A stretch of DNA of 24,749 bases from a virus. The notes beneath the pieces are model-generated. The model saw only the letters and a program-made list of their open reading frames with translations, searched no databases and had not been told where the DNA came from. This document shows, in pieces, positions 10,297 to 22,495 of this stretch. How positions within the stretch are numbered: position 1 is the stretch's first letter; every line of letters begins with the position of its first letter. The stretch covers positions 1 through 24,749 of IMG/VR virus record IMGVR_UViG_3300006805_000149; one strand, given 5' to 3'. Position numbers and translations under genes: made by a program.

Positions 10297-10994
10297 TGGA
10301 TAAGCGCCTTAACACGGCGTTCATTGATGCTGACTACATGGTTTATAAAATAGGATTCTCATCTAAGGATGTCTCCGAAGCTATAGCCTGTAGTCGGCTT
10401 CAGGAACAGCTATTTGATCTAGTCTACACAACTTTGAAGTGTGAAGATTATGATGCTTTTATCACAGGCAAGACTAATTTCCGATATGAGGTTGCTATAA
10501 CGCATCCTTACAAAGGAAATAGGAAAATGCTTGAGCGTCCCATCCACTACGAAGCCCTACGAGAAAAACTTATCTCTCTAGGTGCTTCTGTTAGTGAGAA
10601 CCAAGAGGCTGACGATGATGTAGGCATTATCTCTTCACAGTATGAAGGAATTATTGTCCATGTGGATAAAGACTTAGACCAGCTTCCGGGTTTGCATTTC
10701 AATCCTATAAAAGGAGAGATGTATTCCATAACACCTGAGCAAGGGCTTAAAAACTTCTACACTCAGTTACTAACAGGAGATAGAATTGACAACATTGTTT
10801 GCTTGTATGGCATCGGCCCTGTCAAGGCTGCGAAGATTCTTAAAGACTGTACGACAGAGCAAGAGCTCTATGGAGCAGTGAAGAAGGCTTATGAAGACCA
10901 CGAAGAGCCTCTGGACAGACTTCTAGAGAACGGCAGGCTGTTGTGGCTAAGCCGTTATGAAGGACAACGCTGGGAGTTTCCTAGTGAGGAGTAG
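10296..10994 (+). CDS. T7 gp6-like 5'-3' exonuclease (FEN/PIN family)
   Basis: A 232-residue nuclease that removes RNA primers and degrades host DNA in T7. Metal-binding carboxylates appear in order: FIDADYMVY (D11, D13), EADDDVG (E104, D106-108), VHVDKDLDQL (D124, D126) and LLTGDRIDNI (D162, D165). A helix-hairpin-helix follows (YGIGPVKAAKIL, 171-182). ATG overlaps the SSB stop by one base. The order SSB-exonuclease-HNH is typical of this phage group. Confidence 0.92.
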   Translation: MDKRLNTAFIDADYMVYKIGFSSKDVSEAIACSRLQEQLFDLVYTTLKCEDYDAFITGKTNFRYEVAITHPYKGNRKMLERPIHYEALREKLISLGASVSENQEADDDVGIISSQYEGIIVHVDKDLDQLPGLHFNPIKGEMYSITPEQGLKNFYTQLLTGDRIDNIVCLYGIGPVKAAKILKDCTTEQELYGAVKKAYEDHEEPLDRLLENGRLLWLSRYEGQRWEFPSEE

Positions 10995-11361
10995 TTTTAA
11001 TGATGGAGAATGGACAGCTGCTAAATTCAGAAGCTTTGTTACTGGTGCGCTGCGAACGGCAACTCGCCGATGGCCTCCGAAGTATGCTGCTCTGAAGGAA
11101 GCCTCTACTACACGGAAAACTAACAAGAAGACAGGAAAGCTTGCTATGCACTATATGTGCTCTACTTGCTCTGTTGAGTTTGTTAGTGGAGATGTGCAGA
11201 TAGATCATACAAGCCCTGTGGTGGAGCCTTCGAAGGGCTTTATTAGCTGGGATGTTTATGTCGATAGATTGTTCTGTGAGAAGGATAATCTAAGTGTGCT
11301 CTGTAAGCCCTGCCATGCTGATAAGACAGCAGCAGAAAAGAAATTAAGGAAGAAGAAATGA
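10984..11361 (+). CDS. HNH endonuclease, replication-module type
   Basis: About 125 aa from a GTG at 10984 (GGGAG 7 nt upstream); a longer in-frame form begins at ATG 10957. It opens FNDGEWTAAKFRSFVTGALR and RRWPPKYAALKEA, then a zinc-binding CSTCSVEF, the HNH core VQIDHTSPVV (IDH), GFISWDVYVDRLF and a second Cys pair LCKPCHADKTAAEKK. This domain layout is common next to exonuclease genes in T7-like phages and is probably a resident recombination or DNA-processing nuclease rather than a recent homing gene. It overlaps the exonuclease by 11 nt and the next gene by ATGA. Confidence 0.85.
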   Translation: MRSSFNDGEWTAAKFRSFVTGALRTATRRWPPKYAALKEASTTRKTNKKTGKLAMHYMCSTCSVEFVSGDVQIDHTSPVVEPSKGFISWDVYVDRLFCEKDNLSVLCKPCHADKTAAEKKLRKKK

Positions 11362-14232: not shown

Positions 14233-14399
14233 TGGGATACTACACTCCCTATATAAAAAGTAGTTATATAACCGGAGGGCTACGAAGGCAAACAGTGCAG
14301 GACTTCCTTGCAGCTGTGGCCTTTGTAGACAAGTTTAAGAAGTTTGACCAGCTATATGTATACGAACAAGAAAAGAAGGAAATTAATGACCAAGAATGA
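14232..14399 (+). CDS. Hypothetical protein (55 aa)
   Basis: ATG overlaps the previous TGA by one base, and the 3' end overlaps the RNR start at 14386 by 14 nt. Product MGYYTPYIKSSYITGG, then a helix QDFLAAVAFVDKFKKF and a charged tail. No family recognised; it may serve mainly to couple translation into the RNR gene. Confidence 0.45.
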   Translation: MGYYTPYIKSSYITGGLRRQTVQDFLAAVAFVDKFKKFDQLYVYEQEKKEINDQE

Positions 14400-15456
14400 A
14401 CTATCCCCATACCAAACCTACATCTCCAAGAGCCGGTATAGCCGCTTCCTAGACAGTGAGGGCCGTCGAGAGCATTGGCCTGAGACAGTAAATCGTTATT
14501 TCAACTTCATGGAAAACCACTTGCAGAAGAAGCATGGCTATGTGCTCACAGAAGCCCTGCGAGGCCGCTTGCAAGAGGCTGTGACCAACTTAGAGGTTGT
14601 GCCGTCAATGCGCTCTATCATGACCGCTGGAGAGGCTCTGGAGCGTCAGAACATTGCAGGCTACAACTGTGCTTACATCACTATTGATGATGTGAAGAGC
14701 TTTGATGAGGCAATGTATATTCTTCTGTGCGGTACAGGCGTTGGTTATAGTGTGGAGCAGAAATATGTTAACCGTCTTCCAGAAGTTCCAGAGGTGTTGT
14801 ACAATAGCAATACTACTATTGGTGTTAAAGATTCCAAAGAGGGCTGGGCTAAGGCGTTACGACAGGTGTTTGCCCTCCTTTATGCAGGAGAGATTCCTAA
14901 GTGGGATGTATCAGCTGTGCGTCCTTCGGGAGCACGACTTAAGACATTCGGTGGCCGTGCAAGTGGCCCCGAGCCTTTGGTGGACTTGTTTAAATATGTC
15001 GTTGCTAAGTTCAAGGGTGCTGTGGGTCGGAAACTCACATCCCTTGAAGCACACGACATTCTGTGTAAGATTGGGGAAGTTGTTGTTGTGGGCGGTGTTC
15101 GACGAAGCGCAATGATTAGCTTGTCTGATCTTGGTGATGACAATATGGCAAAGGCCAAGGCAGGTAATTGGTGGGACGGTAATGGACAACGGGCTCTGGC
15201 TAACAACAGTGCTGTGTACGATACCAAACCCTCTGTAGGCCAGTTTATGCGTGAATGGAGCAGCATCTATGAGAGTCATTCAGGTGAGCGTGGTATTTTT
15301 AATCGCTATGCTAGTAAATTACAAGCGAATAAGAATGGAAGACGCGCTGTGCAGGTTGTAGTGACTTTAGAGGATGGAAGTAAGCAGACGTTTGAGTCAA
15401 ATGAGCTTTTTAATAACAAAGCAGCTATTGATTTGAAAGTAGGGGACAGTGTTTAA
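14386..15456 (+). CDS. nrdJ: Class II (B12-dependent) ribonucleotide reductase NrdJ, N-terminal piece of a split gene
   Basis: Reduces ribonucleotides to deoxyribonucleotides. This piece has 356 aa. Residues 1-320 are normal NrdJ: YNCAYITIDD with the first redox Cys (C95), LLCGTGVGYSVE, WDVSAVRPSGARLKTFGG, VVGGVRRSAMISL, ALANNSAVYD, ERGIFNRYASKL and NGRR. Residues 321-356 (AVQVVVTLEDGSKQTFESNE, then AAIDLKVGDSV) are foreign and end at TAA 15454-15456. The radical Cys and second redox Cys are on the C-terminal piece at 15811, so this polypeptide alone cannot be active. The start at 14386 has SD GAAGGA; an in-frame ATG at 14344 is less likely. N- and C-pieces are in the same reading frame. Confidence 0.93.
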   Translation: MTKNELSPYQTYISKSRYSRFLDSEGRREHWPETVNRYFNFMENHLQKKHGYVLTEALRGRLQEAVTNLEVVPSMRSIMTAGEALERQNIAGYNCAYITIDDVKSFDEAMYILLCGTGVGYSVEQKYVNRLPEVPEVLYNSNTTIGVKDSKEGWAKALRQVFALLYAGEIPKWDVSAVRPSGARLKTFGGRASGPEPLVDLFKYVVAKFKGAVGRKLTSLEAHDILCKIGEVVVVGGVRRSAMISLSDLGDDNMAKAKAGNWWDGNGQRALANNSAVYDTKPSVGQFMREWSSIYESHSGERGIFNRYASKLQANKNGRRAVQVVVTLEDGSKQTFESNELFNNKAAIDLKVGDSV

Positions 15457-15840
15457 TAAGATTTGTAACAAATGCAAAGAAACAAAATCTTTAGATTTAT
15501 TTGTAAAACATAAACAATGTATTGACGGAAGAGCCGGATATTGTAAAGCATGTGATGCAACTACAGTGAGCAATCTAAGGAGAGCAACAAAGCTGAAAGC
15601 TATTGCTTACAAGGGGGGTGCTTGTTCTAGGTGTAGTGGAGTGTTTCATCCAGCTGTATATGATTTCCATCATATAGACCCCTTAGAAAAAGAAGCTGAT
15701 CCCGGTTCTTTGATGGGAAGAAAATGGAAAGTAGTAAAAGAAGAGCTTGATAAATGTATCTTGCTCTGTTCAAATTGTCATCGGCTTACACACGCAGAAG
15801 AGGAGTGGAAATGAAAATTACAAATATAGAGGTTATTGCT
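15346..15840 (+). mobile_element. HNH-bearing insertion that splits nrdJ (about 495 bp)
   Basis: Inferred boundaries: after NGRR (codon ending 15345) and before DTGNHAYGTNPC (codon starting 15841). The length is a multiple of three. It contains 36 codons of open frame after the N-piece, an HNH gene in another frame and about ten codons before the C-piece. The base composition is visibly more AT-rich than the flanks. The N-side has an intein-block-B-like phrase (VTLEDGS...DLKVGDSV) and the C-side a block-F-like strand (KITNIEVI), but no Cys/Ser at position 1 and no terminal His-Asn. Exact edges need comparison with an uninterrupted homologue. Confidence 0.7.
15449..15814 (+). CDS. HNH homing-type endonuclease inside nrdJ
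   Basis: A 121-residue nuclease from a GTG at 15449 that overlaps the stop of the N-piece by 8 nt; its TGA overlaps the ATG of the C-piece. N-terminal zinc ribbon ICNKCKETKS...YCKACDA (CxxC plus CxxC), then the HNH fold with CSRCSG, YDFHHIDPLEK (HH) and ILLCSNCHRLTH. A typical free-standing phage HNH endonuclease. The gene is AT-rich compared with its neighbours, a sign of separate origin. Its likely target is the uninterrupted nrdJ of related phages. Confidence 0.9.
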   Translation: MFNKICNKCKETKSLDLFVKHKQCIDGRAGYCKACDATTVSNLRRATKLKAIAYKGGACSRCSGVFHPAVYDFHHIDPLEKEADPGSLMGRKWKVVKEELDKCILLCSNCHRLTHAEEEWK

Positions 15841-16791
15841 GATACAGGTAATCACGCTTATGGAACAAACCCCTGCTCAGAAATCATTCTGCGGCCTTTT
15901 CAATTTTGTAACTTAAGCAGTGTTATTGTGCGACCAGAAGACACAGAAGAAACCTTGCTAGACAAGATTGAAATGGCAACCATCTTGGGAACCTTCCAAT
16001 CAACCATGACCAGCTTTCCTTATCTCCGTAAGATTTGGCAGCAGAATACAGAAGAAGAGCGTTTGTTGGGTGTGTCTATGACAGGCCCGTTAGACAATGT
16101 TTTATTGAATAATCCGGAAGATGAAGATCTCCCACGTTTACTAGAAAGCCTAAAAGCCCGTGCTGTTATTACTAATAAACAATTTGCTGATGATATTGGC
16201 ATTAGTGCTTCTGTCGCTATTACCGCTATCAAGCCCGAGGGCACTGTCAGCCAGCTTAGTAACACTGCTAGTGGCCTTCACCCTCAACACAGTCGTTACT
16301 TTATTCGCCGTGTACGAAGTGATAATAAAGATCCTCTGACGGACTTCCTGAAGGCACAGGGGTTTCCTTCAGAGGCTTGTGTGATGAAACCAGATAGCAC
16401 AACTATCTTCAGTTTCCCGATGCGAGTTAAAGAAGGGGCTTTGTTGCGTGAAGACTTGGATGCTGTTAAGCACTTGAAGCTTTGGTTGCTGTATCAGCGT
16501 CACTATTGTGAGCATAAGCCTTCAGTAACTATCAGCGTGCAGGAACATGAGTGGCCTATTGTTGGTGCTAAGGTGTGGGAGAATTTCGATGAGATCACAG
16601 GTGTTAGCTTTCTACCTATGGATGGAGGGACATATCGACAAGCTCCTTATGAAGCTATCACGGAATATGAGTATCACACTATGGAAGCAACGATGCCTAC
16701 GAATATTGACTGGGATGCTTTGGTAGAAAACACTGATAATGTTGAAGGAGCCCAGATGCTTGCATGCACCGCAGGCGCTTGTGAAATTTAA
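15811..16791 (+). CDS. nrdJ: Class II ribonucleotide reductase NrdJ, C-terminal piece of a split gene
   Basis: A 326-residue piece starting at ATG 15811 with its own SD (GAGGAG, 15800-15805) inside the end of the HNH gene. The first ten residues (MKITNIEVIA) are foreign. From residue 11 it continues NrdJ: YGTNPCSEIILRP with the thiyl-radical Cys (C22) and Glu (E24), FCNLSSV with the second redox Cys (C33), LLGVSMTGP, AIKPEGTVSQL and the C-terminal thiol relay CTAGAC (C319, C324). N-piece (320) plus C-piece (316) gives about 636 residues, near the usual length of monomeric class II RNRs. All essential residues are present across the two pieces, so a functional two-polypeptide enzyme is plausible. 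Confidence 0.93.
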   Translation: MKITNIEVIADTGNHAYGTNPCSEIILRPFQFCNLSSVIVRPEDTEETLLDKIEMATILGTFQSTMTSFPYLRKIWQQNTEEERLLGVSMTGPLDNVLLNNPEDEDLPRLLESLKARAVITNKQFADDIGISASVAITAIKPEGTVSQLSNTASGLHPQHSRYFIRRVRSDNKDPLTDFLKAQGFPSEACVMKPDSTTIFSFPMRVKEGALLREDLDAVKHLKLWLLYQRHYCEHKPSVTISVQEHEWPIVGAKVWENFDEITGVSFLPMDGGTYRQAPYEAITEYEYHTMEATMPTNIDWDALVENTDNVEGAQMLACTAGACEI

Positions 16792-21737: not shown

Positions 21738-21965
21738 TTAATAACTCCCGCCATCTACTGTTGCTGTAAGAACACCCGACACTGTTAGATTCACCATTGT
21801 GGCTGTTCCTGTGAAAGAGCCGTTATTAGCCTCACTCTTGGAGCTGATTGCTGAAGCTATGTTAGTAAATTCAGTATCAATCTCCGTGCCTTTGATAATC
21901 TTATTAGGATTGCCTGTAACTAAGCCATCTTTAATGGCGAAGTTGGTTGTCTTTGTGTAGTTCAT
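21738..21965 (-). CDS. Small tail-associated protein (75 aa)
   Basis: MNYTKTTNFAIKDGLVTGNP, then NKIIKGTEIDTEFTNIASAI and a beta-rich C-terminus (MVNLTVSGVLTATVDGGSY). I recognise this opening from podovirus tail-fiber-like or structural proteins next to tail tubular protein B. The product is short and has no receptor-binding domain, so it may be an adaptor or a stand-alone tail component. Its ATG overlaps the HNH stop (ATGA); before that gene arrived it would have followed tail tubular B directly. Confidence 0.7.
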   Translation of the reverse strand: MNYTKTTNFAIKDGLVTGNPNKIIKGTEIDTEFTNIASAISSKSEANNGSFTGTATMVNLTVSGVLTATVDGGSY

Positions 21966-22495
21966 GGATAACCTCTATCTTTCATGTATTGTACAACTGT
22001 ATCTAGCTCTGCTGTTGTAGCATAGGATTTAATTCTATTTGCTTTCCAAGAAATAACTTGAACGTTATCCTTTGTGTAGCCTTTTGTAGAATCAATACGG
22101 TCTAAACTTGGGCTGGTTTCTCTAAAACCTGCTGAGTTCCATTCGAAATCAATATTAAAAATAGGACATTTGTTATCTACAGGCCAAAGCTCTTTAATAT
22201 CTTCTAACGTTAATGTGTGCTCTCTATTCTTTTTTAATGCTCTGGCTTTAGAGGCACTTAACAGCATCTGTACCCGATAAGATAAATTAGTCAATCTACG
22301 ATTGCGTTGATATTTTAAAGAATATTCTCTTATTTCATCCGCGCATCTTAAGCGACGAGCAGTCTGTCTAATCTTATCACAAGCTCTACAGCAGTTTTGA
22401 AGCCCATCCTTGTTGGCTCTGTTAATCGAAAATAAAGATTTATTTACCTCTTCTTTACAAAGATTGCAAGGTTTAGTTTCAAGGGCAGTGCTCAT
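21962..22495 (-). CDS. HNH homing-type endonuclease in the tail module
   Basis: 177 aa. N-terminal zinc ribbon CNLCKEEVNKSLFS...CCRACDKIRQ, a basic linker (ARRLRCADEIREYSLKYQRN) and a C-terminal HNH-type core with CPIFNIDFEW, SPSLDRIDSTKGYTKDNVQV and ISWKANRIKS (DRID...GY...NV..IS..AN..K signature). It is more AT-rich than the flanking virion genes. It fits between tail tubular B and the 75-aa gene with 4-nt stop/start overlaps at both ends and no damage to either neighbour. A free-standing mobile endonuclease. Confidence 0.9.
   Translation of the reverse strand: MSTALETKPCNLCKEEVNKSLFSINRANKDGLQNCCRACDKIRQTARRLRCADEIREYSLKYQRNRRLTNLSYRVQMLLSASKARALKKNREHTLTLEDIKELWPVDNKCPIFNIDFEWNSAGFRETSPSLDRIDSTKGYTKDNVQVISWKANRIKSYATTAELDTVVQYMKDRGYP

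Follow-up and report, generated by a model that had tools for sequence, protein, structure and literature searches.

In the virus record IMGVR_UViG_3300006805_000149 of IMG/VR, whose whole 24,749 nucleotides (24.7 kb) were analysed and are referred to here as the window, nrdJ, the gene of a class II ribonucleotide reductase, is cut into an N-piece and a C-piece with the open reading frame (ORF) of an endonuclease between them. The N-piece runs on into a foreign tail and the C-piece begins with a foreign head. Most probably a homing cassette broke the gene and supplied a docking domain with it, a domesticated core of a split intein through which the reductase would reassemble. The boundaries of the insertion are clear, and homologous tail/head pairs enclose different endonucleases in several phage lineages. 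Tail and head resemble the matching part of inteins in sequence profile and in predicted fold, and the best reading of this likeness is that the two are what remains of a split intein (Hint domain): the core next to its split site, with the catalytic outer parts gone. If true, this would explain which parts can keep a gene working once a homing endonuclease has split it, a question left open for the NrdA of phage Aeh1, T4 topoisomerase and phage 25 polymerase (PMC2988022).

Layout of the split gene and its relatives

The N-piece ends in ...ANKNGRR, followed by the tail AVQVVVTLEDGSKQTFESNELFNNKAAIDLKVGDSV and a stop, while the C-piece opens with the head MKITNIEVIADTG and continues NHAYGTNPC (Table 1). 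A sequence-only reading of this DNA had proposed that the N-piece runs on for 36 residues past a junction five to ten residues before the NPC radical-Cys motif, and that the C-piece carries a foreign start of 10 residues; the extension was recovered at that length, the cassette lies six residues upstream of NPC, and the head is indeed foreign, but 13 codons long. At the first junction the stop of the N-piece overlaps the GTG start of the HNH endonuclease (GTGTTTAA), and at the second the TGA of the endonuclease overlaps the ATG of the C-piece (ATGA). Since the two pieces lie in the same frame, and reading through from one to the other is interrupted by 13 in-frame stops, no simple frame change produced the split; the stops also rule out a single chain made by in-frame read-through. 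Both pieces match phrog_367, a phage family of ribonucleotide reductases, and a model of the joined reductase was nearest to the B12-dependent reductase 1l1l (Z 36.9).

Table 1. Features of the split nrdJ locus (positions in the window)
Feature	Position	Strand	Basis
nrdJ N-piece, first reductase part with foreign C-terminal tail	14386..15456	+	phrog_367 residues 4-312, E=3e-91
Foreign tail, 36 codons; matches N-inteins in their C-terminal part, from the block B region up to the split site, with the His lost	15346..15453	+	
HNH endonuclease ORF, GTG start, overlaps N-piece stop and C-piece start	15449..15814	+	phrog_2255, E=1.1e-32
Foreign head, 13 codons (MKITNIEVIADTG); matches the first strand of C-inteins	15811..15849	+	
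nrdJ C-piece, second reductase part including the radical-Cys loop	15811..16791	+	phrog_367 residues 12-326, E=3.1e-81
GTNPC radical-Cys motif, directly past the insertion site	15862..15876	+	sequence; conserved among aligned reductases

Searches of IMG/VR with tails and heads returned seven sequence-distinct tail/head types, all at the same nrdJ site, with E-D-G, N-E, V, A and D invariant in the tails. The peptides flanking related inserts are homologous rather than unrelated. L001 is a nearly identical relative of the window: over 9,068 bases the two differ at one, 15409, where the base of the window turns a conserved tail Val into Phe (NELF in the window, NExV in the family). The difference may reflect polymorphism or faulty assembly. 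Two tails compared by tblastn with a collection of cultured phages gave chance matches only, mostly antisense, and a scan of genome contigs for tails gave none; a search for heads with a GTG start returned only the already known L087 contig.

The endonuclease of the window clade is an HNH ORF of phrog_2255, whereas the other types carry Endonuclease VII (EndoVII) ORFs (PF02945), identified by Pfam in L086, L087, L125 and L128; those of L090 and L100 were assigned from their 80-84% identity to these ORFs. The HNH ORF of the window has no BLAST similarity to the EndoVII set. With different nucleases between homologous tail/head pairs, the ends have been retained and the middle exchanged at least once, an exchange that may have taken place between distant branches of one superfamily. 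In profile searches the HNH ORF (15449-15811) matched the HNH family phrog_2255 and, weakly, the endonuclease VII family phrog_1035.

Intein-like profile and predicted fold of tail and head

We collected and aligned 14 phage inteins and compared them profile to profile with the tails and heads (hhalign). As the intein set was picked with a self-composed generic Hint consensus query, and the reported E-values are those of single comparisons, we relied on null distributions. The profile of the seven tails matched the phage N-inteins over 40 columns, in their last part and up to their end (Prob 93.2, score 35.2), against a maximum of 15.9 in 300 column shuffles (0/300) and of 13.3 in 69 reductase windows. 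The second half of the tail alone, past the hairpin, scored 23.5 against a null maximum of 12.5, and a single tail of the window type (in its L001 form) 18.2 against 15.1. The heads aligned with the C-inteins from residue 1, weakly (14.2 against a null maximum of 14.1), and tail plus head against the corresponding intein halves (IntN plus IntC) gave an hhalign probability of 94% and a score of 41.0 over 48 columns, with a null maximum of 16.8. The pattern can be followed by eye in the intein stretch of Salmonella phage S16 UvsW (TGNHKFLTNRGWVRADELTENDDIVEWK) and the matching tail of L125 (SANEYVKTSRGDIPAYKVKEDDEIL), where the block-B His is replaced and much of the other pattern kept.

Much of an intein is missing from the pairs. 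The tail alignment begins at about position 56 of 97 in the N-inteins, with block A and the earlier part absent; the TxxH of block B reads xxNE in all seven tail types; and the heads are one strand followed directly by host sequence, with blocks F and G, the terminal His-Asn and the +1 Cys/Ser/Thr all missing. With these three defining features absent, the tail/head pair is not an intein, and on its residues splicing would not be expected. The resemblance of the tail to the block B region, claimed by the sequence-only reading, was confirmed with the His lost, as was its observation that Cys/Ser1, TxxH and His-Asn are missing; the head, which it likened to the block F strand, matches the first strand of C-inteins, weakly, and lacks block F. 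One could still imagine the pair as a functional, if non-canonical, split intein by which the halves are trans-spliced to a single NrdJ chain, given its kinship to inteins and a layout like that of fractured genes with split inteins (uvsW of phage S16, nrdA of Campylobacter phage CPt10). However, seven of seven tail types have neither a residue-1 nucleophile nor the ~55 residues ahead of block B and carry NE in place of the block-B His, and no head has block F, His-Asn or a following Cys/Ser/Thr; we give trans-splicing almost no credence.

AlphaFold models were made of the in-frame N-to-C read-through (801 residues) and of tail, linker and head alone (185 residues), the linker in them being artificial, a read-through artefact of stop codons and out-of-frame nuclease region. 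Both models contain a hairpin, a short turn-helix and a brief strand, and in both the head forms a single long strand. When the tail-linker-head model was compared with the PDB by VIA-align, the top 18 neighbours were all inteins (Z 6.9 to 3.8), the best of them matching at 2.0-2.1 Å over 51-55 residues that cover tail and head, and the first non-intein neighbour followed at Z 3.7. Although a Z of 6.9 is modest, so pure a run of inteins at the head of the list would not readily arise by chance. The matched ranges start at residue 38 to 103 of the solved inteins (58 and 73 in the best two), never at residue 1, which indicates that the part of the intein preceding block B has been lost.

Tested by profiles, structural neighbours and a survey of related inserts, the Hint reading of the insert ends held and is supported. 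The comparison of hidden Markov models (HMMs) of tails and heads with Hint/intein profiles was positive at the profile-profile level, and structure prediction for a joint beta domain gave a single-chain model with inteins as nearest neighbours. The survey of relatives, in turn, returned homologous flanking peptides, and no intact intein at the exact split site.

Several points weigh against this reading. HMMER searches of Pfam and the PDB with single tails and tail profiles found no intein, the similarity being seen by profile-profile comparison only, and the head by itself has too few residues to establish homology firmly. The models carry moderate confidence, with pLDDT about 65-79 for tail and head, the best VIA-align Z of 6.9 does not reach 8, the level under which the tool advises caution, and Foldseek alone on the tail-to-head model was not significant (best E 0.09). 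It is also puzzling that a piece should be stable when the initial ~55 residues of the Hint fold are absent, and both the docking of the halves through tail and head and the activity of the docked enzyme are inferred by analogy with Aeh1 NrdA.

Some of these points would also suit a small beta domain that is Hint-like by convergence, with no intein ancestry, and docks the halves as in Aeh1. The weak HMMER matches of the tails are beta-hairpin look-alikes only (aRib, Spindlin, a designed small barrel), Rib domains among them, and phage Aeh1 solved the same problem with unrelated tails. Yet the match to inteins spans the whole tail, stops at the intein split site and is taken up again by the head, with the order and the place of the endonuclease as in inteins, and the second half of the tail matches inteins by itself; we consider convergence unlikely.

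Selection, mobility and the insertion site

The tail is under purifying selection. Between the tails of L087 and L100, 21/25 synonymous sites differ against 7/83 nonsynonymous sites, and between those of L086 and L090 synonymous divergence (dS) is 1.6 and nonsynonymous divergence (dN) 0.18. The reductase halves of the window and L002 have a dN/dS of about 0.07-0.10, and the reductase is present as a single copy in four split records.

These values bear on two further explanations. Tail and head could be functionless translated debris of a decaying intein or of an endonuclease insertion in a dying gene, as the lost catalytic intein residues and the Val-to-Phe change at a conserved position, unique to the tail of the window, might suggest. 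However, the protein sequence of the tail is kept despite strongly diverged synonymous sites, the halves of the reductase are under strong purifying selection, and tails and heads recur as pairs in several lineages, and decay is very unlikely in our judgement. A dying intein split by a frame change was one of the two alternatives of the sequence-only reading; purifying selection, seven sequence types and the shared frame of the pieces in the window speak against it, and the other alternative, a docking module, is the better supported, although binding itself we infer. The tail might instead be kept for the nucleic-acid or expression side, as endonuclease start or homing site, with no function as protein, for wherever this was examined, the endonuclease start codon overlaps the last codons of the tail or its stop. 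Such a role would not account for conservation at the amino-acid level across the whole tail, with synonymous sites saturated between L087 and L100, or for the recurrence of the head, which lies beyond the endonuclease, and we hold it to be highly improbable.

The insert is younger than its flanks and scattered among intact genes, as expected for homing. Synonymous divergence between the window and L002 is 0.17 and 0.26 in tail and endonuclease, against 0.60 and 0.81 in the reductase (p=1.8e-6). Nucleotide identity between the two follows the same course: tail and nuclease agree at 94-95%, the adjoining 200 nt on each side at 91-92% and the full reductase halves at 83-87%; the 39-nt head, at 84.6%, is off this trend. 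In a quick tree of 81 unevenly sampled reductases the split state requires 6 changes, at least 5 of which are forced by well-supported branches, and the split L125 is sister to the intact L245. The scattered distribution and the lower synonymous divergence of the insert are indirect support for homing, in which the endonuclease presumably cuts the empty nrdJ allele at this site and would thereby spread the whole cassette.

Empty sites are common. The split is present in 3/80 loci related to the N-piece (L001, L002 and L074), and the others with sequence across the site are uninterrupted. Intact relatives read GRR-(1-2 residues)-xxx[WYF]-GTNPC, and in 230/248 nrdJ loci only 3 or 6 nt separate GRR from the residue equivalent to the N of NHAYGTNPC; the remaining loci comprise the split family, the other inserts L219 and L281, and six in which the C side was not scored, the split L074 among them. 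The loop before the radical-Cys finger loop is variable among intact relatives and could be tolerant of an added domain.

Other elements occur at this spot. The inserts of L219 and L281 were rejected as members of the tail/head family. A group I intron (RF00028, 72.7 bits) lies in the nrdJ of L281 and of L270, at the GTNPC motif and at or a few codons past the split site, and this proximity indicates that several kinds of mobile element target the spot. The nrdJ of L219 has a separate insertion or break at GTNP; its C side picks up again with a delay of ~180 nt, and Rfam gave no match there at the gathering threshold. In the window, no Rfam match was found around the endonuclease ORF (15200-16000, E up to 1), and a group I intron was rejected as the identity of the insert, of which only ~140 nt lie outside the ORF. 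Elsewhere in the window two small ORFs look HNH-like by eye: 10957-11361 (+) has a Pfam HNH match only below the curated cut-off, and 21962-22495 (-) has no Pfam match.

Proposed assembly of the split reductase and known systems

In the mechanism that we propose, a cassette of tail, endonuclease ORF and head was inserted in nrdJ, and both reductase pieces would be translated from one mRNA through the overlaps of stop and start. Tail and head would pair as a small beta domain on the loop before the radical-Cys finger loop, a non-covalent clip that would keep the halves together as an active enzyme, and with this clip the endonuclease could enter an essential gene without killing it. Natural split inteins bind tightly ahead of splicing, and from there the loss of the chemistry with the association kept would be a short step. 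This suggests an evolutionary intermediate on the way from split inteins that still splice to plain split enzymes, in which the chemistry is lost and the fit of IntN and IntC kept. We lean, if narrowly, towards regarding this as a third lifestyle open to a homing element within an essential gene, the other two being the self-splicing intron and the intein, one in which the gene stays broken, a non-splicing split-intein core clips the polypeptides together and the nuclease is exchangeable. We found no report of a domesticated non-splicing intein core in the open-access literature, a scope outside of which key papers lie and which limits judgement of novelty. The small natural pairs (36 + 13 residues) are candidates for non-covalent clips of split proteins.

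The closest functional parallel is the split nrdA of Aeromonas phage Aeh1, reportedly described with its mobE by Friedrich (2007); Crona et al. (2011) are said to have found the NrdA tails essential for activity. There, too, a ribonucleotide reductase is halved by an HNH endonuclease gene, and the sequences carry a foreign tail on the first piece and a foreign head on the second. The Aeh1 enzyme split by mobE is active (PMC2988022). It differs in being a class Ia NrdA, split at another site, rather than a class II NrdJ, and its tail and head gave no alignment with the present tails and heads or with Hint; the Aeh1 tails were therefore rejected as homologues or as Hint remnants. By analogy, the best reading is that the split nrdJ would work like the Aeh1 split reductase.

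By sequence, the split nrdJ appears to resemble a fractured-gene split intein after the loss of splicing. Such fractured genes, in which the halves of a split intein enclose a nuclease, were reportedly described by Dassa (2009). In uvsW of S16 and nrdA of CPt10 the order is N-extein/IntN, ORF, IntC/C-extein with compact or overlapping ORFs, and the nrdJ tail corresponds to the end of IntN and the head to the start of IntC. The nrdJ pair differs in having no block A, block-B His or blocks F/G, and trans-splicing would not be expected of it. Both fractured genes (L150, S16 uvsW; L162, CPt10 nrdA) have apparently complete split-intein halves around the inserted ORFs; the CPt10 nrdA is annotated as a pseudogene, and since its intein halves look intact it may be a trans-spliced gene.

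Among phage endonucleases of the homing type (HNH of the Felix O1 type; EndoVII type) the inserted ORF itself is an unremarkable member; what sets it apart is its place within a host gene, flanked by the two parts of a putative docking module. In Vibrio phage Phriendly and Salmonella phage PKM.Hi.22.6, which carry HNH relatives of it, no split gene is apparent from the annotation, and tails were not searched for there. NrdJ split inteins such as NrdJ-1 share with the window the gene and the neighbourhood near the radical-Cys loop. NrdJ-1 is complete, splices and lies after GTNPC, whereas the insert of the window lies before GTNPC and, judging from its residues, would be unable to splice.
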